A stretch of 64,000 bases of DNA from Methanoculleus frigidifontis (GTDB lineage Archaea; Halobacteriota; Methanomicrobia; Methanomicrobiales; Methanoculleaceae). Below are positions 40,420-52,075 of the stretch, one piece after another; position 1 is the stretch's first letter, and every line of letters begins with the position of its first letter. A program made the translations under genes and the position numbers. The notes beneath the pieces are model-generated. The model had not been told where the DNA came from. It worked only from the letters and a program-made list of their open reading frames with translations, and ran no database searches. Location of the stretch: NCBI RefSeq assembly GCF_030464345.1, contig NZ_VCYH01000002.1, forward strand, positions 124,001 to 188,000, read 5' to 3'.

Positions 40420-40595
40420 AGGAACCCATACACACCCCACGATTATTTAAAAGTTTGCCCTGCCGGGGAGGAGCCACAGGCCCTGCCGGACGATACGGGA
40501 GCTTGCGATGCTGCGGGAAGAGGGAGGGGCAGACAGCAGGAGCCTGACGGCCACGGCGATACGATCTGCAGCACTGCCGGAGAAAGACGTTGGTA

Positions 40596-40668
40596 CGCCC
40601 AGGACGGAATTCGAATCCGTGTCGACGGCGTGACAGGCCGTCATGATAGGCCACTACACTACCTGGGC
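40596..40668 (-). tRNA. tRNA-Asp(GTC), copy 1
   Basis: 73 bases; acceptor GCCCAGG pairs with CCTGGGC, and the discriminator G fits aspartate identity. The anticodon loop CTGTCAC gives GTC. The T-arm contains TTCGAAT. The sequence is the same as the second copy. CCA is not encoded. Confidence 0.95.
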
Positions 40669-40717
40669 ACCGATGATCGGGAACAGACACTTTTCAAAAT
40701 GCAATGAGAATGGAATA

Positions 40718-40790
40718 CGCCCAGGACGGAATTCGAATCCGTGTCGACGGCGTGACAGGCCGTCATGATAGGCCACTACACTACCTGGGC
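40718..40790 (-). tRNA. tRNA-Asp(GTC), copy 2
   Basis: 73 bases with the same sequence as the copy at 40596-40668, separated by 49 bp. It lies 14 bp after the tRNA-Tyr in the direction of transcription, so the three are probably one precursor. Confidence 0.95.
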
Positions 40791-40804
40791 ACCAATGAGT
40801 GAGA

Positions 40805-42615: not shown

Positions 42616-42978
42616 TTAACTGGCACCCGGGGGCTGCTGCCCTTCCAGCGCCCCTTTGACCTGTGCAGAGAGCTGCTCGAACCGCCCCTGCAGGGTCTTC
42701 TCCTGCTTCTCAAGGGACTTGATACGCAGTTCGAGGTTCTCGATCTTTTCGTTCAGGGATGCCAGAACCTTCTCTTTGCTCTGCTGCATCATGACCGTGC
42801 CGACGCTCATGTAGACGTTCGCATCCTCGGCGACGTCCCCGAGATCCTCGACAGCTCGCTTTGCCTCCCTGACCGTCATCTCGTACTGCGCTTTCTGCGA
42901 GACGATCGTCTGCAGCTGCTGCTGCATCTGCTGCAGCATGGCGAGCTGATTCTGAACTTTCGGCGGTATGGAATCCAT
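42616..42978 (-). CDS. pfdB: Prefoldin subunit beta
   Basis: A 120-residue co-chaperone subunit: two long coiled-coil helices (VQNQLAMLQQMQQQLQTIVSQ, EKIENLELRIKSLEKQEKTLQ) joined by a beta-hairpin region (EDANVYMSVGTVMMQ). With the alpha subunit it forms the hexamer that captures unfolded proteins. ATG 42978 follows GGTGAAG. It is the last gene of the translation superoperon and converges on leuA. Confidence 0.93.
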   Translation of the reverse strand: MDSIPPKVQNQLAMLQQMQQQLQTIVSQKAQYEMTVREAKRAVEDLGDVAEDANVYMSVGTVMMQQSKEKVLASLNEKIENLELRIKSLEKQEKTLQGRFEQLSAQVKGALEGQQPPGAS

Positions 42979-43133
42979 CTTCACCAATCTCCTGTATGGG
43001 TCTTCTGTGTCATCGTAGATATGCATGATGACGGCGGGAGAGGTCATTGCACACCTGCAAGACTCTCACGCTCTTTGCCTACATGATACGCACCTTCAGG
43101 CATTAAAAGATGAGGATTTCACCAGCAGGCCGG

Positions 43134-43895
43134 CTAGACGATCTCGTAGCGGCCGATACCGGTCTTCATCGCACCCCGAACCCGCTGCCAGCCGTCGCTC
43201 GGCCCGGTGAGGGTGAGCACCGCCCGGTCGCGCAGTTCGTTTCCGGACCAGCCGAAGACGAACCAGGTGTTCGAACCGGTCAGGCCGACGGTGATCGTCA
43301 CCCGGGCGTCGGGCGCCGCCCTGTAGGAGGCAAAGAACGCTGTTTCGTAGGTATAACAGACCGGCGGCGATGCGGGATCGTGCGGGAAGTCACACGCGAC
43401 CCCCGTCAGGCTGTACTTCGGCCGGAGCAGCGTGCTGTTTCCCAGCGGATGGGCGGTATCGATCACCGCGCCGGCGTCGGCCTCGGCGACGAGCCTGATC
43501 GGCACGAGCACCGGCGATGCGGCAGGGTTCCCCTCCTCGCCTACGGCAACCGGCGGAGGGCGGTACTCCGGTGCGATCCGGTCTGCGGTGATCTTCATGA
43601 ACGTGGCGTTTCCGGCACCGTAAAGGCCGATACCCCACCCCCGGGGAAGGCCGGCAAGGTCGCCCCTGCCGACCGCCAGGGTGACCGGGGAGCGGCCGCC
43701 GTTCTCGGGCAGCGGGAGGAAGAGGGTCACGTTCGTAAGCACTCTGTCGGTCTCGAGCGTTATCTCGTAGGTGTAGGTGCTCGAGAGCGTCTCCGCGTAG
43801 GTGCTCTGGACATAGGCAGAGAACCCTATGAACAGACCGGCCAGGAGCAGGGCGATACAAAGAATCCTGACCAGGTGCCGAAGTGCCGTATCCAT
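43134..43895 (-). CDS. Membrane-anchored or secreted protein, unknown
   Basis: A 253-residue protein with an N-terminal hydrophobic segment (ILCIALLLAGLFIGFSAYV), a probable signal or anchor, followed by a beta-rich extracellular part (YTYEITLETDRVLTNVTLFLPLPENGGRSPV...). Two cysteines (CDFPHDPASPPVC) could pair. It contains several N-x-S/T sequences suitable for N-glycosylation. It lies between pcc1 and pfdB in the superoperon, where no member is expected. No family recognised. Confidence 0.7.
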   Translation of the reverse strand: MDTALRHLVRILCIALLLAGLFIGFSAYVQSTYAETLSSTYTYEITLETDRVLTNVTLFLPLPENGGRSPVTLAVGRGDLAGLPRGWGIGLYGAGNATFMKITADRIAPEYRPPPVAVGEEGNPAASPVLVPIRLVAEADAGAVIDTAHPLGNSTLLRPKYSLTGVACDFPHDPASPPVCYTYETAFFASYRAAPDARVTITVGLTGSNTWFVFGWSGNELRDRAVLTLTGPSDGWQRVRGAMKTGIGRYEIV

Positions 43896-43962: not shown

Positions 43963-44214
43963 CTATTCCGGGGAGGGGGAGCAGACCAGCTGGCGCACCT
44001 CGTCGGCGATGTTGATCAGCCGCAGCCAGGTGTTCAGGGCGGCACGGAGCGCCGCCGCATCGGCGGCAGTGACCGAGAGGACGAGGGTTGACTCGTCCTC
44101 GAGCCGGACCTCGGCCCGCGAACGGCCTGCAACCTCCCCCTGCTCCTGGCAGACGGAGCGGTAGAGGAGGCCGGCATCCTCGGCCGTGAACCGGAACGTC
44201 GCCGAGTAGGTCAT
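43963..44214 (-). CDS. pcc1: KEOPS complex subunit Pcc1
   Basis: An 83-residue Pcc1/CGI-121-associated subunit of KEOPS, needed for N6-threonylcarbamoyladenosine at position 37 of tRNAs. A helix-strand pattern is seen with RSRAEVRLEDESTLVLSV and AALRAALNTWLRLINIADEV. The length matches. It overlaps the Brix-domain gene by 4 bp and follows rpoP in the usual archaeal order. Confidence 0.9.
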   Translation of the reverse strand: MTYSATFRFTAEDAGLLYRSVCQEQGEVAGRSRAEVRLEDESTLVLSVTAADAAALRAALNTWLRLINIADEVRQLVCSPSPE

Positions 44215-44615
44215 GCCTCTCCCACCGTGAGGGTATAGTGCTTCCGCTGCGTGCCGTCGAACGCCAGCGTCCGCGGGTCGAGGGCGTCCGTATAGACGAC
44301 GCTCAGGTATTCTTTCAGGTCGTCGTACAGGGCGCGGTTCCCGGTGCAGAGGCCCCGGCGGATCTCACCCGCGCGGGTGTCGACGGAAAAACCGGCTACG
44401 GCGATGCTGACGAGAGGCTCTCCGTCGACGAAGAGCTCGAAAAAATATGCGCGGCGTCTGCTGGAGACGAGGAGCACCGTCCGGTTCTCCCGGAAGATCT
44501 CCTCAAGCCCCATCTTGCCGCGGGAAAAAAATCTCTCCTGAAGCGCAAATGCGAGGTCGCGCGCCAGAGACCGCACTTCAGGGAGCGGTTTTCTCGACGT
44601 GGTGACGACCGTCAT
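44211..44615 (-). CDS. Brix domain ribosome biogenesis protein (Imp4-like)
   Basis: A 134-residue archaeal single Brix-domain protein. It opens [22 protein letters not shown], the conserved Imp4/Brix start. It includes [26 protein letters not shown] and the RKHYTLTVG end. It is expected to bind rRNA precursors. Its ATG overlaps the rpoP stop by ATGA, indicating translational coupling. Confidence 0.88.
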
Positions 44616-44743
44616 CGCGCCTTGAGATCTTTTATAGCGGCGCCACGCTCTTTGAAGAGGATACGGTGTCCGCAGTAGGGGCATCGGATATTGATGTCGA
44701 TATCCACCTTCTGCTTGCACCGTGCACACTTATAGGCAGCCAA
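44612..44743 (-). CDS. rpoP: DNA-directed RNA polymerase subunit P
   Basis: A 43-residue subunit (eukaryotic Rpb12 equivalent). It has a zinc ribbon with C6, C9, C21 and C24 (YKCARCK and [10 protein letters not shown]). The start is TTG at 44743, preceded by AAGGAGGT, the strongest ribosome-binding site in this block. It is short enough to be missed by gene finders. It lies 5 bp after the L37Ae stop. Confidence 0.92.
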
Positions 44744-44748
44744 ACGGG

Positions 44749-45039
44749 TTATACCTCCTTCTGCAGCGAACGCTCGATGCTCCGGGAAGCGACACGCATC
44801 GTCGGGGTCTCCGGCACATACGTCCCTCCGGCGAACTTAAACCCGCACTTGCGGCACTCCCAGATGCCGGTACCGCGGCGGCGAACCGCCACCTGATCAC
44901 ACCGCGGGCAGGCGTGGAGAGCACGCGAGACCTTCTCGATCTGGTTGACTCTCTTTCTGATAAACCGCCCATACCGCGGGCCAAAGCGGCCCGCACTTCC
45001 GACAACCCTGCCCTTAGCACTCTGTTTGCGTTTTGCCAT
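44749..45039 (-). CDS. rpl37ae: Ribosomal protein L37Ae (eL43)
   Basis: A 96-residue large-subunit protein, [24 protein letters not shown], with zinc ribbon C44, C47, C62, C65 (HACPRCDQV and [10 protein letters not shown]). It binds 23S rRNA. It opens the second half of the superoperon under a TATA box at 45061-45070. Confidence 0.96.
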
Positions 45040-45060
45040 TCCGCATACCTCTGATATGTC

Positions 45061-45070
45061 CTTTTATATT
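45061..45070 (-). promoter_or_regulatory. TATA box for the L37Ae-rpoP-Brix-pcc1 unit
   Basis: AATATAAAAG on the minus strand, centred about 27 bp from ATG 45039, within the short gap to SBDS. Confidence 0.5.
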
Positions 45071-45101
45071 TGTGTTTTCGCTTAATATAGTTACTCAACA
45101 A

Positions 45102-45800
45102 TCATCGATCGAGAATTCTGGCGTCGGCATCTCCCTTCGACAACCGGTTCACGAGGTCGAAGAACTCCTCCTGGATCCCGGCGGGAATTCTCACGACACA
45201 GATCCACGACCCGTCCTTCTGCCATTCGTTCTGCTCGATGGTGGCCGCCGACTGGATCTCCCCGAACGCACGCGCCGCATAGTCTGCCGGGAACTTCACC
45301 GCAATCCGGATCTCCTCGAAACGGATGGGAAGAATCGGGCGGAGCGCCTTGACGGCCTCTTTGACAAGCTCGTCGAGGTGCTTGAACGGATCGGGGTTGA
45401 ACTTTGCCTGGTCCAGGGCGAGCTCGATCCGCTGCGGCGGGTGCGGAAGATTATTCTGGGGGTTGATGGCGTTTCGCGCGATGAACGTGATGACCTGCCG
45501 CCGTTTGTCGGCGATCATCTGCCTGCGCTGCTCGGCGGTGAGGTGGATCTCGCCCTTCCGGATGATCCGGCGGGCGATGGGATCGAACTCCGTGGTGTCG
45601 AAGACCTTCTTGAGCGACTCTTCGGACGCCTTCTCTGCGTGGCCTGCGTTCGAGAAGACGTACTCCGCGGCGACGACGTCCTCGAGATCGACGTCTTCGC
45701 CGTGCCGGACCAGCGCCGCCATATCGGGGTCGACGAGAACCTCGAACCGTTCACCGTGGCTTTCCAGCCGTGCCACCACTGCCTTGTCGAGGGGGATCAT
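45102..45800 (-). CDS. Ribosome maturation protein SBDS
   Basis: A 232-residue protein with the three-domain SBDS architecture. The N-terminal FYSH domain is recognisable by VVARLESHGERFEVLVDPD and IRKGEIHLTAEQRRQM. Then a helical domain (FIARNAINPQNNLPHPPQRIE) and a C-terminal ferredoxin-like domain follow. It releases the anti-association factor aIF6 from nascent large subunits. ATG 45800 (MIPLDKA) is used; GTG 45815 inside the psmA stop is an alternative. Confidence 0.93.
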   Translation of the reverse strand: MIPLDKAVVARLESHGERFEVLVDPDMAALVRHGEDVDLEDVVAAEYVFSNAGHAEKASEESLKKVFDTTEFDPIARRIIRKGEIHLTAEQRRQMIADKRRQVITFIARNAINPQNNLPHPPQRIELALDQAKFNPDPFKHLDELVKEAVKALRPILPIRFEEIRIAVKFPADYAARAFGEIQSAATIEQNEWQKDGSWICVVRIPAGIQEEFFDLVNRLSKGDADARILDR

Positions 45801-45811
45801 GCAGGACCGAC

Positions 45812-46534
45812 TCACTCTTCGTACTGCTCGACGAACGTCTTCACTTCTTCCGGCTCCATCTTCCGGAACGTCTTCTCTTCGAGGGAGACAACACCGATCT
45901 CGACCGTGTTCACGTCGAACTTGCCTTCGGTGGCGGCGTGCAGGGCTTTGAGCCCGAGCTTGATGGCATCGGCGAAGCCGGCCTCTTCGTTGTACTCGTC
46001 CTCGAAGACCTTCATGACGGCGGGCCGGCCGGTGCCGATCCCCGTCGCCTTGTACTCGAGCAGCGTGCCGCTCGGGTCGGTCTCGAAGAGACGGGCTTCA
46101 TCGTCGCTGATGCCGGCGATGAGGAGAGCGGTGCCGTACGGCCGGGCTCCGCCGAACTGGGTGTAGACCTGCATGTGGTCGCAGAGTTTCTTTGCAAGAA
46201 CCTCCACGTCGATCGGTTCGTCGTAGGAGACGCGGTTGATCTGGCTCTCCACCCGTGCCCGGTCCACGAGCGAGCGTGCGTCCCCGACGAGGCCGGAGGA
46301 CGCCACGCCGATGTGGGTGTCGATCCTGAAGATCTTCTCGATGGATACCGGTTCGAGCAGGCGGGAGCTGACCCGTTTGTCGACGATCAGGACGACGCCG
46401 TCGGCACACTTGATACCGACGGCGGTCGTGCCCCGCTTGACTGCTTCACGTGCATACTCGACCTGATAGAGCCGGCCGTCCGGGCTGAATACGGTGATTG
46501 CCCGGTCATACCCCATTTGATATTGTGGCTGCAT
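45812..46534 (-). CDS. psmA: Proteasome subunit alpha
   Basis: A 240-residue 20S proteasome alpha subunit: [27 protein letters not shown] is the diagnostic N-terminal segment that gates the pore. [18 protein letters not shown] and [14 protein letters not shown] follow. The active threonine of beta subunits is absent, as expected. The C-terminal tail [12 protein letters not shown] is acidic. It overlaps pop5 by one base. Confidence 0.97.
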
Positions 46535-47016
46535 TATCTCTCCTCCAAATCCGTTTCGGTCAAAAATAATAGCTTCTGGGTTTTAATACTTTTTTCAACC
46601 AAATCAACCTTTTGACGGGGATAGCGATACATCGTAAAATATCTTTCTCCGATGACGCACTCCTCCGGCTCAGAAACAGGCCTGATCTGCCGCATCCGTC
46701 GTTTCAGGGCATGGATGGTGCCTGAAACCGCCATCGTCCTGAGCGCAACCGCCCGATCGCCGACGGCGGTGACCGTGGCAAGGGCGGTGGCGATCGCATC
46801 CTCGGACCCCCGGCGGCACCGGACGATCAGGTACTGCTCGTCGCAGAAGACCACCGCAGGCTGCGCAAGCCCGACCACCGCATCGCCCCAGAGCGCCGTT
46901 GCCGCGTCCAGAACCGACAGATAGGCCTGTTTCTGGTCGGGGCAACTCCCGGGCGGGACGATCCGCGCCAGAATGTAGCGGCGTTTCTGCCGCATCACCG
47001 GCGGCCGCGGCTTCAC
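46534..47016 (-). CDS. rnp2: Ribonuclease P protein component 2 (Pop5/Rpp14)
   Basis: A 160-residue Pop5-type subunit that with Rpp30 activates RNase P RNA. The signature is RYILARIV and the mid-region [25 protein letters not shown]. The basic start and the helical tail fit the family, with an extended C-terminus of some 35 residues. The gene abuts rpp30 with a 4-bp overlap and psmA with one base. Confidence 0.9.
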
Positions 47017-47654
47017 GCGATCACCCTCACGGGGCGGGCGGGCCGAAGAAGCGTGCCGACCGTCGCGAGGGCTGCGGCAACTTCCTCGTGCGTCATGCCG
47101 AAGAGGGCGCAGAGCCTTTCTGTCTCCCGGACGGAGCGCTGGTCAAGGATGGAGCGTGCGTTGCTGGAGATGGTCAGCCCAAAGCCGTAGCGGCGGTGCA
47201 GCAGCAGCAGATCGGCATACCGGTGCAGAACCTTCTGCCGCCCGGCACCCCGGTAGTGAACGATCGGGTAGAGGTTGATGTCCACGGCCACGCCCCGCTC
47301 CGCGGCCGCACGTGCCGCCACATGGTCGAACGCGTTCTTCGGTGATCGGTAGATGCTCCGCAGGACGGAGACGCCACGCGCCGTGACGGCCGCCCGGTTA
47401 AAGGCGAGGTCACCCGCATCGACGAAGATCAGGTCGATCTCAGGGCCGGCCCGCTGCGCCTGTTTGAGCAGGTCTTTGACCGAGGAAGCACGGATGACCA
47501 TTCCCCGCAGGATGCACAGAGTATCGGAGCAGGCAGGCTCCCCGTCGATGACGACGATGCTGTCGAATCCGAGTTCGGAGGCTTCGATCGCCATCCTCCC
47601 GGCCGAGGAGTTCCCGGCAGGATAGGGGCATACACTTGCGTCAGTGGCGTGCAT
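47013..47654 (-). CDS. rnp3: Ribonuclease P protein component 3 (Rpp30)
   Basis: A 213-residue TIM-barrel subunit of RNase P, paired with Pop5. Segments: ASVCPYPAGNSSAGRMAIEASELGF, DIDLIFVDAGDLAFNRAAVT-like strand, and NARSILDQRSVRETERL near the C-terminus. The start at 47654 has a TATA-like CAAATAAATA overlapping the L15e stop about 30 bp upstream, so it can be transcribed independently of L15e. Confidence 0.9.
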   Translation of the reverse strand: MHATDASVCPYPAGNSSAGRMAIEASELGFDSIVVIDGEPACSDTLCILRGMVIRASSVKDLLKQAQRAGPEIDLIFVDAGDLAFNRAAVTARGVSVLRSIYRSPKNAFDHVAARAAAERGVAVDINLYPIVHYRGAGRQKVLHRYADLLLLHRRYGFGLTISSNARSILDQRSVRETERLCALFGMTHEEVAAALATVGTLLRPARPVRVIA

Positions 47655-47683: not shown

Positions 47684-48274
47684 TTATTTGCCGCGGTTCG
47701 CGTGAGCACGGATGCTCGGCCGCGTCTTCTCCGTGCCGCGACCGCGCCTGCGCATGCCGCGTCCCTTCATGCCGGCGGAGGTCTTGCCGCGCTCGGCACG
47801 ACCGCGGTGAACGGGGTCTGCAATCCAGGCGAGCTGCCGGTCGCTCCGGATGGAGGGGTGGTTGCCGTCGACGAGGATGACCTCATACCACTTCTGCCGT
47901 CCGTCCTGACCGACCCAGTAGGAGTTCAAGACCTCCATGTTCGGGTACCGGCGGGCGGCACGCTCTTCGGCAAGCCGCTGCAGGCTCTTTGCGGGGGTGA
48001 CCCGGCGCATACCCATGCGGGCGCTCCGGCGTCCGCGGACGTACCGGGACTTCCTGCGTCCGCCGCGGCGGATCTTGACGCGCACGACGGCGATCCCCTG
48101 TTTTGCCTTGTAACCGAGTGTCCGGGCTCTGTCGATACGGGTCGGCCGCTCCACGCGGACGATGCTTCCCTCGCGCCGCCAGACCTGCATCCGCTCCCAG
48201 AGGAGGTCGCTGACCTCCGACTCGTCAGGTTTCTTCCAGGCCTCGCGGACGTAGGCATACATTGATTTTGCCAT
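47684..48274 (-). CDS. rpl15e: Ribosomal protein L15e
   Basis: A 196-residue basic protein, [21 protein letters not shown], typical of eL15. [28 protein letters not shown] contacts 23S rRNA and [12 protein letters not shown] ends the chain. GAGGTGAT precedes the ATG. It opens the superoperon after a leader beginning near a TATA at 48360-48367. Confidence 0.97.
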
Positions 48275-48359
48275 GTTTCTATCACCTCAGGTTCAGCGTT
48301 TCCGCCACATTCCTTTCCGGGACGGGTCCCGGGGTTCTTTATCAGGTCGGCAGGAGACG

Positions 48360-50677: not shown

Positions 50678-52075
50678 ATGGGACTCGGCGACGATATCAG
50701 GAGGGGGCTTTCGGCCATACGCGACGCGGACGAGGTGACGGTGATCTCCCACATCGACGCCGACGGCATCAGCACCGAATCGATCCTGGCGCAGGCGATC
50801 GCACGGGAAGGCATACCGGTAACATCGGTCTTCGTCCGGCAGCTCGAACCGATGGCGATGCGGCATGTCCCAAAAGACGCGTCGCTCAAGGTCTTCACCG
50901 ATCTCGGCGCCGGTCAGCAGAGCCTCCTCGAGGAGCACGGTCTCTCCGCCGAGGAAGTACTGATCGTCGACCACCACGTCGCCCAGCCCTGCGAGACCGA
51001 GTACCAACAGGTCAACTGCCTCGACCACGGCTACACCAAGATGAGCGCCGCGGGCGTCGCCTACCTGATGGCAAAAGAACTCGACCCGGGCAACATCGAT
51101 CTCGCAAAACTCGCGGTCGTCGGGAACGTCGGCGACATGATGGCCCGGGAGACCTGCGGCCTCGTCGGCCCGGCACGCGAGATCGTCGAGGACGGCGTCG
51201 CCGCGGGCAACGTCCTCGTCCGGAAGCGCGACCTGAACTGCTACGGCACCTCGACGCGGCCGATCCACGTCTGCCTCGGCTACAGCGACGACCCCTACAT
51301 CGCCGGGATCAGCAACAACACCAGCGCCGCCCTCCGGTTCCTGCAGAAACTCAAAGTCCAGTTAAAGACCGGCGACGGGCGCTGGCTCGTCTGGGAGGAG
51401 CTCAGCCACGAAGAGAAGCGGACGATCATCAGCGCACTGACCCAGCAGCTCATCGCGAGCGGGAAAGAGACGGACCGCCTCCTCGGCGAGGTCTACCTCT
51501 TCCCGGACGAACCGGCGCGGACGCCGCTGCGGAACGCCTCGGAGTACGCCACCCTGCTGAACGCCTGCGGCCGCTGGGCGAAGCCGCGGATCGGCGCCGG
51601 CGTCTGCCGGGGCGACCGCGGGCCCGCCTACCGCGACGCCGAGTACATGCTCAGCCACCACCGGGCGATCATCCGCGAGCTCCTTCAGTATATTCTGGAC
51701 GCCGGGGTGACGGAGCTCTCAAACCTCCAGTACACCCATACCGGCGAGAAGTTCCCGGACACGATCGTGGGGATCGGGGCGGGCATGGCGCTCTCCAAAC
51801 TCAACTGGCGCAAACCGATCCTGATCATGAGCGCCGTCATCGACGATGCCGAGATCACCAAAGTCTCGGTGCGGACGAACGAGTGGGCGATCGCCCGGGG
51901 CGTCGACCTGCAGGACGCGATGATGAAGGCGTCCGAGGCGGTCGGGGGTGCCGGCGGCGGGCACAAGATCGCGGCGGGTGCGTTCATCCCGAAAGAGAAA
52001 GAAGAGGAGTTTGTCAACCGTGTCAACAGAATACTCAAAGAACAGTCTGCTCTCCAGGATCCGGACGATAGCTGA
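50678..52075 (+). CDS. RecJ-like DHH-family phosphoesterase
   Basis: A 465-residue protein of the archaeal RecJ/GAN-like group. The DHH domain has ISHIDADGIST (H25, D27, D29), FTDLGAGQ and IVDHHVA. The DHHA1 end has GGAGGGHKIAAGAFIP. Archaeal relatives are single-strand exonucleases that act with the replication (CMG) machinery, although some are nucleotide phosphatases. The N-terminal 20 residues are helical. Confidence 0.88.
   Translation: MGLGDDIRRGLSAIRDADEVTVISHIDADGISTESILAQAIAREGIPVTSVFVRQLEPMAMRHVPKDASLKVFTDLGAGQQSLLEEHGLSAEEVLIVDHHVAQPCETEYQQVNCLDHGYTKMSAAGVAYLMAKELDPGNIDLAKLAVVGNVGDMMARETCGLVGPAREIVEDGVAAGNVLVRKRDLNCYGTSTRPIHVCLGYSDDPYIAGISNNTSAALRFLQKLKVQLKTGDGRWLVWEELSHEEKRTIISALTQQLIASGKETDRLLGEVYLFPDEPARTPLRNASEYATLLNACGRWAKPRIGAGVCRGDRGPAYRDAEYMLSHHRAIIRELLQYILDAGVTELSNLQYTHTGEKFPDTIVGIGAGMALSKLNWRKPILIMSAVIDDAEITKVSVRTNEWAIARGVDLQDAMMKASEAVGGAGGGHKIAAGAFIPKEKEEEFVNRVNRILKEQSALQDPDDS

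Follow-up and report, generated by a model that had tools for sequence, protein, structure and literature searches.

Order-wide absence of RNA exosome genes in Methanomicrobiales and the SBDS-L37Ae spacer of Methanoculleus frigidifontis

Introduction

The exosome is often regarded as the standard RNA-degrading machine of archaea. In exosome-bearing relatives of the Methanomicrobiales, rrp4, rrp41 and rrp42 lie between the genes for SBDS and ribosomal protein L37Ae. In the DNA studied here, a 64,000-nucleotide stretch of the Methanoculleus frigidifontis genome (hereafter the window), these two genes are separated by a spacer of 62 bp. This arrangement raises the question of whether the exosome genes were lost or moved, whether the spacer acts as a promoter, and which nucleases could carry out RNA turnover in their place.

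Results

The exosome interval is reduced to a short spacer throughout the order

The gene order proposed in the earlier note, from L15e to prefoldin beta, is borne out by NCBIfam matches and, for RpoP, by the translation (Table 1), with two amendments: the Brix-like call is weak, its frame giving no match in a Pfam search, and a gene for a 253-residue protein, absent from the note's list, lies between Pcc1 and prefoldin beta. The start of this protein resembles a membrane anchor by eye. We take the small zinc-finger protein to be RpoP because of its cysteine pattern. In Pop5, the family match covers residues 13 to 107 of 160, and 53 residues extend past it. The superoperon flanks L15e, the RNase P parts, PsmA, SBDS and L37Ae are thus in order in the window; the step from SBDS into rrp4-rrp41-rrp42 that marks the superoperon is missing, and L37Ae comes 62 bp after SBDS. 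The spacer length given in the note is exact (45102 is the last base of SBDS and 45039 the first of L37Ae), and no exosome gene is at the usual place. By coordinates, the PsmA gene shares 4 bp with SBDS and 1 bp with Pop5. The only Rfam matches in the whole window are three tRNAs and the eL15 leader. Two of the tRNAs are tandem minus-strand tRNA-Asp genes with anticodon GTC (40595-40669 and 40717-40791; 61.5 bits each), 47 bp apart.

Table 1. Features of the gene block, DnaG and candidate RNA turnover genes (window coordinates unless a contig is named)
Feature	Location	Strand	Evidence
eL15-Euryarchaeota ribosomal protein leader	48285-48331	-	RF03144, 42 bits (gathering score 33.7)
L15e ribosomal protein	47684-48274	-	NF003269, 305.2 bits (cut-off 178)
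Rpp30, RNase P component 3	47013-47654	-	NF046111, 123.8 bits (below cut-off 200)
Pop5, RNase P component 2	46534-47016	-	PF01900, 57 bits; NF002986, 39.9 bits (below cut-off 195)
PsmA, proteasome subunit alpha	45812-46534	-	TIGR03633, 364.6 bits (cut-off 287.35)
SBDS ribosome assembly factor	45102-45815	-	TIGR00291, 299.3 bits (cut-off 126.55)
SBDS-L37Ae spacer, 62 bp; site of rrp4-rrp41-rrp42 in exosome-bearing relatives	45040-45101	-	
L37Ae (eL43) ribosomal protein	44749-45039	-	NF003058, 119.9 bits (cut-off 87)
RpoP (presumed), small zinc-finger RNA polymerase subunit, TTG start	44612-44743	-	translation
Brix-like rRNA maturation protein (weak call)	44211-44729	-	NF002093, 35.8 bits (cut-off 171)
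Pcc1, KEOPS subunit	43963-44214	-	NF011470, 60.4 bits (cut-off 27)
253-aa protein	43134-43895	-	no NCBIfam or Pfam match
Prefoldin subunit beta	42616-43047	-	TIGR02338, 114.3 bits (cut-off 73)
Archaeal RecJ family nuclease, near the block	50678-52075	+	NF053576, 549.3 bits (cut-off 360)
DnaG	C1:213440-214639		
RNB protein, 506 aa, TTG start	L101:417-1934		PF00773, 250.8 bits

We compared this locus with those of other genomes, as the earlier note had proposed. SBDS was present in all 60 order genomes drawn, and all 60 loci contained PsmA, SBDS and L37Ae, with SBDS and L37Ae as direct neighbors separated by 42 to 72 bp (46 bp in locus L052). Among the first 30 of these loci, Pcc1 was matched in every one and the Brix-like gene in 29. 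In exosome-bearing relatives, by contrast, SBDS lies near an RNase PH gene in 30/30 loci (within stretches of 3.4 kb or less), and L37Ae, where it was reached (5 of the 30), begins approximately 2.2 to 2.6 kb after the SBDS stop codon. At L026, the only outgroup locus with both ends clear, a frame of 266 codons runs to within 3 bp of L37Ae. These distances fit a deletion of about three genes between SBDS and L37Ae. Since every order genome examined shares the derived state, the deletion predates the radiation of the order, or very nearly so.

Exosome components other than DnaG are absent from the order

A genome-wide search for Rrp4, Csl4, Rrp41, Rrp42 and DnaG, also suggested in the earlier note, recovered only DnaG. 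The RNase_PH model (Rrp41/Rrp42) had no match in the M. frigidifontis assembly (98.99% complete, 30 contigs, approximately 1% unseen), in any of 232 Methanomicrobiales genomes at a threshold of 0.001, or in the 135 better ones among them. This model was positive in 12 of 14 controls and matched 180 of 390 genomes of the phylum with best E-values of 1e-33 or lower, at two copies per listed genome except for one with four. ECR1_N (the Rrp4/Csl4 N-terminal domain) and KH_6 were each absent from 106 order genomes, M. frigidifontis included, and positive in the Sulfolobus and Methanosarcina controls. The EXOSC1 (Csl4) model likewise gave 0/106, M. frigidifontis again included; it is the weakest of the four because M. 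acetivorans was its sole positive control, the Sulfolobus control having been missed. DnaG is kept in 105 of the 106 genomes, in 104 of them with a score over the cut-off, and only G001 lacks a match. The loss is therefore not special to M. frigidifontis but order-wide, and the note's description of a clean loss agrees with the lack of any RNase_PH, ECR1_N, KH_6 or EXOSC1 match in the searched assembly.

Spacers are alike within a family and carry a chance-level TATA-like word

The earlier note had described a new TATA box in the spacer. The AT-rich stretch is real (AT fraction 0.68), but its TATA match is no better than in shuffled sequence: dinucleotide shuffles equaled the TATA-like score in 97% of draws for the window spacer and in 41 to 100% of draws across all 17 spacers scored. 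These 17 were taken from 30; the spacers omitted (L049-L052, L054, L055, L059-L061, L063, L064, L068 and L070) were near-copies or kin of rows used, plus L052. A TATA-like word is thus expected by chance because the gap is so AT-rich. A sigma-70 scan was set aside as unsuited to archaea.

Within family f1, the spacers are strongly alike. Nine of its 12 rows have ACTATATTA approximately 50 bp upstream of the ATG, and most f1 spacers read ACTATATTA, then GGACA, then AGAGGTA before the start codon. In the spacer alignment, GAC occupies a single column in 14 of 16 rows. Spacers with gaps of 42 to 44 bp have no upstream stretch. From its sequence, the window spacer probably holds the L37Ae ribosome-binding site, AGAGGT. 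Its core GGACATATCAGAGGTA (45046-45061, minus strand) has kin in most aligned order spacers at a similar distance from the L37Ae start, and it could possibly be a leader element or a start site. Within the window, this 16-base core matches itself and two places with three mismatches (0.59 expected; 1 of 100 shuffles reached at least 3).

We considered whether the deletion forced L37Ae to acquire a TATA promoter of its own within the spacer, which the earlier note had called promoter capture. The spacer is found in 60/60 order genomes and is alike within a family, and its length of 42 to 72 bp, against the 3 bp that follow the upstream frame in L026, would suit such an event, as would the placement of ACTATATTA in f1. 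However, the TATA-like scores stay at shuffle level in all 17 spacers, the shortest spacers do without the upstream stretch, and the eL15 leader upstream suggests another start for the block. Taken together, these features leave promoter capture at somewhat under an even chance.

Several nuclease candidates accompany the loss

The earlier note had concluded that RNA decay must rely on other nucleases. This was a fair inference, for which candidate genes exist (RNB, RMMBL and DHH), although their activity is putative. M. frigidifontis encodes aCPSF1 (991.1 bits) and aRNase J (455.7 bits), both over their cut-offs; aRNase J could be paired with a HAN-like S1-OB-DHH protein that scores 791 bits, below its cut-off of 840. 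The RecJ family nuclease near the block contains DHH, DHH-CID and DHHA1 domains (PF21763, PF02272 and PF01368), and a second RecJ-like protein (L107) reaches 245.9 bits against a cut-off of 360. The beta-CASP-linked RMMBL domain and DHH were each found in 17/17 genomes tried.

The bacterial-type, RNase R-like RNB gene is less evenly distributed. It is present in 92 of 106 order genomes that are at least 95% complete and absent from 14, and therefore it cannot be a general replacement for the exosome. Among 390 phylum genomes at least 90% complete, 20 have both RNase PH and RNB, 160 only RNase PH, 192 only RNB, and 18 neither; the Fisher p value of 3.7e-64 (n = 390) should not be read literally, since related genomes are counted as independent. 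In this draw, 16 of 106 order members have neither gene, including all 10 sampled members of genus g13 (G023, G024, G025, G027, G028, G029, G030, G040, G043 and G044), both of g16 (G097 and G099), and G120, G129, G149 and G150. A congener of G120, G119, carries RNB, as do records titled Methanocalculus and Methanocorpusculaceae UBA456. Outside the order, G276 and G340 also lack both genes. A further 102 phylum members beyond the order are exosome-less and carry RNB; these would be mainly Halobacteria, judging from the literature and a positive Haloferax control.

The RNB protein of the order has an altered metal site and seems separately acquired

The M. frigidifontis RNB protein consists of an RNB domain and a C-terminal S1 domain (PF18614, 64.7 bits), and its score against the NCBIfam RNase_R model (240.1 bits) is below the curated cut-off of 597.85. 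Its metal site departs from DxxxxxDxDD in that the fourth Asp is Gln, and this replacement of the fourth catalytic Asp recurs in the order-type motif, SIDNxDSxDLDQ or close to it. All 15 copies found with the family model, 7 from the order and 8 from the exosome-bearing families f14 and f21, contain DLDQ together with H-x-T-A-P-N-R-R-Y. A second RNB type (L071-L100), found in exosome-less genomes that do not belong to the order, has DFDD and HFTSPIRR in 30/30 copies. In a larger set, which includes the best 80 of 580 relatives, Asp-Asp-Asp-Gln occurs in 93 of 95 copies (the other two are truncated), a count that is biased because 80 of the 95 were retrieved using patterns derived from the motifs themselves. 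The same 93 copies keep the other three Asp residues and the Arg.

Phylogenetic analysis suggests that the order gained its RNB gene apart from f14 and f21. In a midpoint-rooted tree of 55 rows, hand-picked from 98 usable ones with 5 rows of the second type left out, the 22 rows assigned to the order (one of them titled only Euryarchaeota archaeon) group together with support of 99/96; this clade adjoins Micrarchaeota (98/92) inside an Omnitrophota-rich group, whereas the f14 and f21 copies group with other bacteria (100/100). A FastTree of all 98 rows, rooted on the second type, gives the order clade 0.73 and its grouping with Micrarchaeota 0.99. Monophyly of the order with f14 and f21 was rejected in an AU test (p = 2.7e-54; the group was chosen after the trees were seen), and the RNB gene of the order thus seems to be a separate acquisition. 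Record titles among the matches listed place the DLDQ type in Omnitrophota, Elusimicrobia, Micrarchaeota and further lineages as well; almost all of these records are metagenome bins, in which sequences may have been misassigned.

Four Asp residues (DxxxxxDxDD) are described in PMC8097288 as conserved in all known active RNB members; if that motif is treated as universal, the DLDQ proteins would class as probable pseudonucleases. In that case, the RNB protein of the order would bind RNA without cleaving it, and 3' decay would proceed without a known exosome or RNase R-type exoribonuclease. The Gln in all 15 family-model copies and in 93/95 of the motif-biased set is consistent with this reading, as is the absence of the gene from 14 of 106 genomes. 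Against it, the three retained Asp residues and the Arg are what a working site would be expected to keep, and the residue equivalent to Asp209, the most critical one according to PMC3293843, is retained in the order's proteins. The literature searched reports no assayed DLDQ enzyme, active or inactive, and the titles and abstract openings of open-licence papers held nothing on this RNB type in Methanomicrobiales. On this balance, a pseudonuclease is a serious minority reading, with roughly one chance in three.

Discussion

We consider it highly probable that the exosome genes were deleted in an ancestor, that DnaG was kept, and that other nucleases serve in RNA turnover. According to this explanation, the ancestor of the Methanomicrobiales would have lost rrp4-rrp41-rrp42 between SBDS and L37Ae, leaving the present spacer as an old deletion scar. 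Csl4 would have been lost as well, so that the phosphorolytic RNA exosome is gone and DnaG stays. L37Ae, which is downstream of the exosome genes in relatives, would now follow a short, AT-rich leader in which its ribosome-binding site probably lies and perhaps a promoter. RNA turnover would most likely proceed via aCPSF1 and aRNase J and, at 3' ends, via a horizontally acquired bacterial-type RNB protein together with the HAN-like and RecJ DHH nucleases. The absence of the exosome, the order-wide adjacency of SBDS and L37Ae, the presence of the candidate genes and the separation of the order's RNB from that of f14 and f21 are observations; that the candidates replaced the exosome, how each would act and in what sequence the events occurred we infer.

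Several points weigh against parts of this explanation. The RNB protein lacks one of the four Asp residues that PMC8097288 treats as conserved in active members, and its gene is missing from 14/106 order genomes. The HAN-like and RecJ nucleases may act on DNA, the absence of Csl4 rests on one archaeal control, and the order's RNB clade has a support of only 0.73 in the 98-row tree. We tentatively suggest, at clearly less than even chance, that, once the exosome was lost, the order relied on a horizontally acquired RNB with an Asp-Asp-Asp-Gln site and that this protein was itself then lost in several lineages, probably including one whole genus; such lineages would have no recognized processive 3'-5' exoribonuclease, and 3' decay would fall to beta-CASP or DHH nucleases or to an enzyme as yet unrecognized.

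Relocation of the exosome genes within this genome, the outcome that would have contradicted the earlier note, was looked for and rejected: nothing was found for it beyond the approximately 1% of the assembly that is unseen, and the four exosome domain models matched neither the M. frigidifontis genome nor the 232 (RNase_PH) or 106 (ECR1_N, KH_6, EXOSC1) order genomes, several of which are single contigs, which makes it very improbable. An exosome too diverged for the models is more improbable still: ECR1_N and KH_6 are short (38 and 47 positions) and the Csl4 model missed its Sulfolobus control, but RNase_PH is matched so strongly in 180 phylum genomes and in none of the 232 order genomes, and the SBDS-L37Ae locus is too small to house a gene.

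The loss itself is already known, since exosome loss in Methanomicrobiales and Halobacteria has been published (PMC8481954, PMC4227792); a Figure 2 legend from one of these two papers names Methanospirillum hungatei and Methanocorpusculum labreanum and has the exosome-less Methanomicrobia group separately. Our results concern the same order and the same missing complex with DnaG kept, and do not differ on the loss; they add the 232-genome check, the spacer, the RNB type and the RNB-less genera. The replacement enzyme, the RNB site and the RNB-less genomes are less firmly established than the loss. For Methanomicrobiales, the usual view of a takeover by RNase R is less secure than it seems: the RNB protein is of a different type from that of the exosome-less phylum members beyond the order, has an altered active site and is missing in some relatives, and exosome-free 3' end decay in archaea thereby becomes a testable question in cultured methanogens.

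Haloferax volcanii, as described in PMC2841640 (RNase R) and PMC10470531 (RecJ3/RecJ4-aRNase J), offers a close parallel: no exosome, an RNB protein of bacterial kinship, aRNase J and an S1-DHH nuclease, for which the HAN-like protein is the candidate in M. frigidifontis. The order's RNB nevertheless differs from the type found in exosome-less phylum members outside the order, which are probably Halobacteria, being 26% identical to two of them, longer (489 to 527 aa in 7 copies, compared with 432 to 457 aa in 26 of 30 second-type copies) and DLDQ rather than DFDD in its motif. In having lost a catalytic Asp, it resembles the fungal Ssd1/Dis3L2 pseudonucleases described in PMC8097288. Unlike those proteins, it changes a single Asp of the four and keeps the other three together with the Arg.
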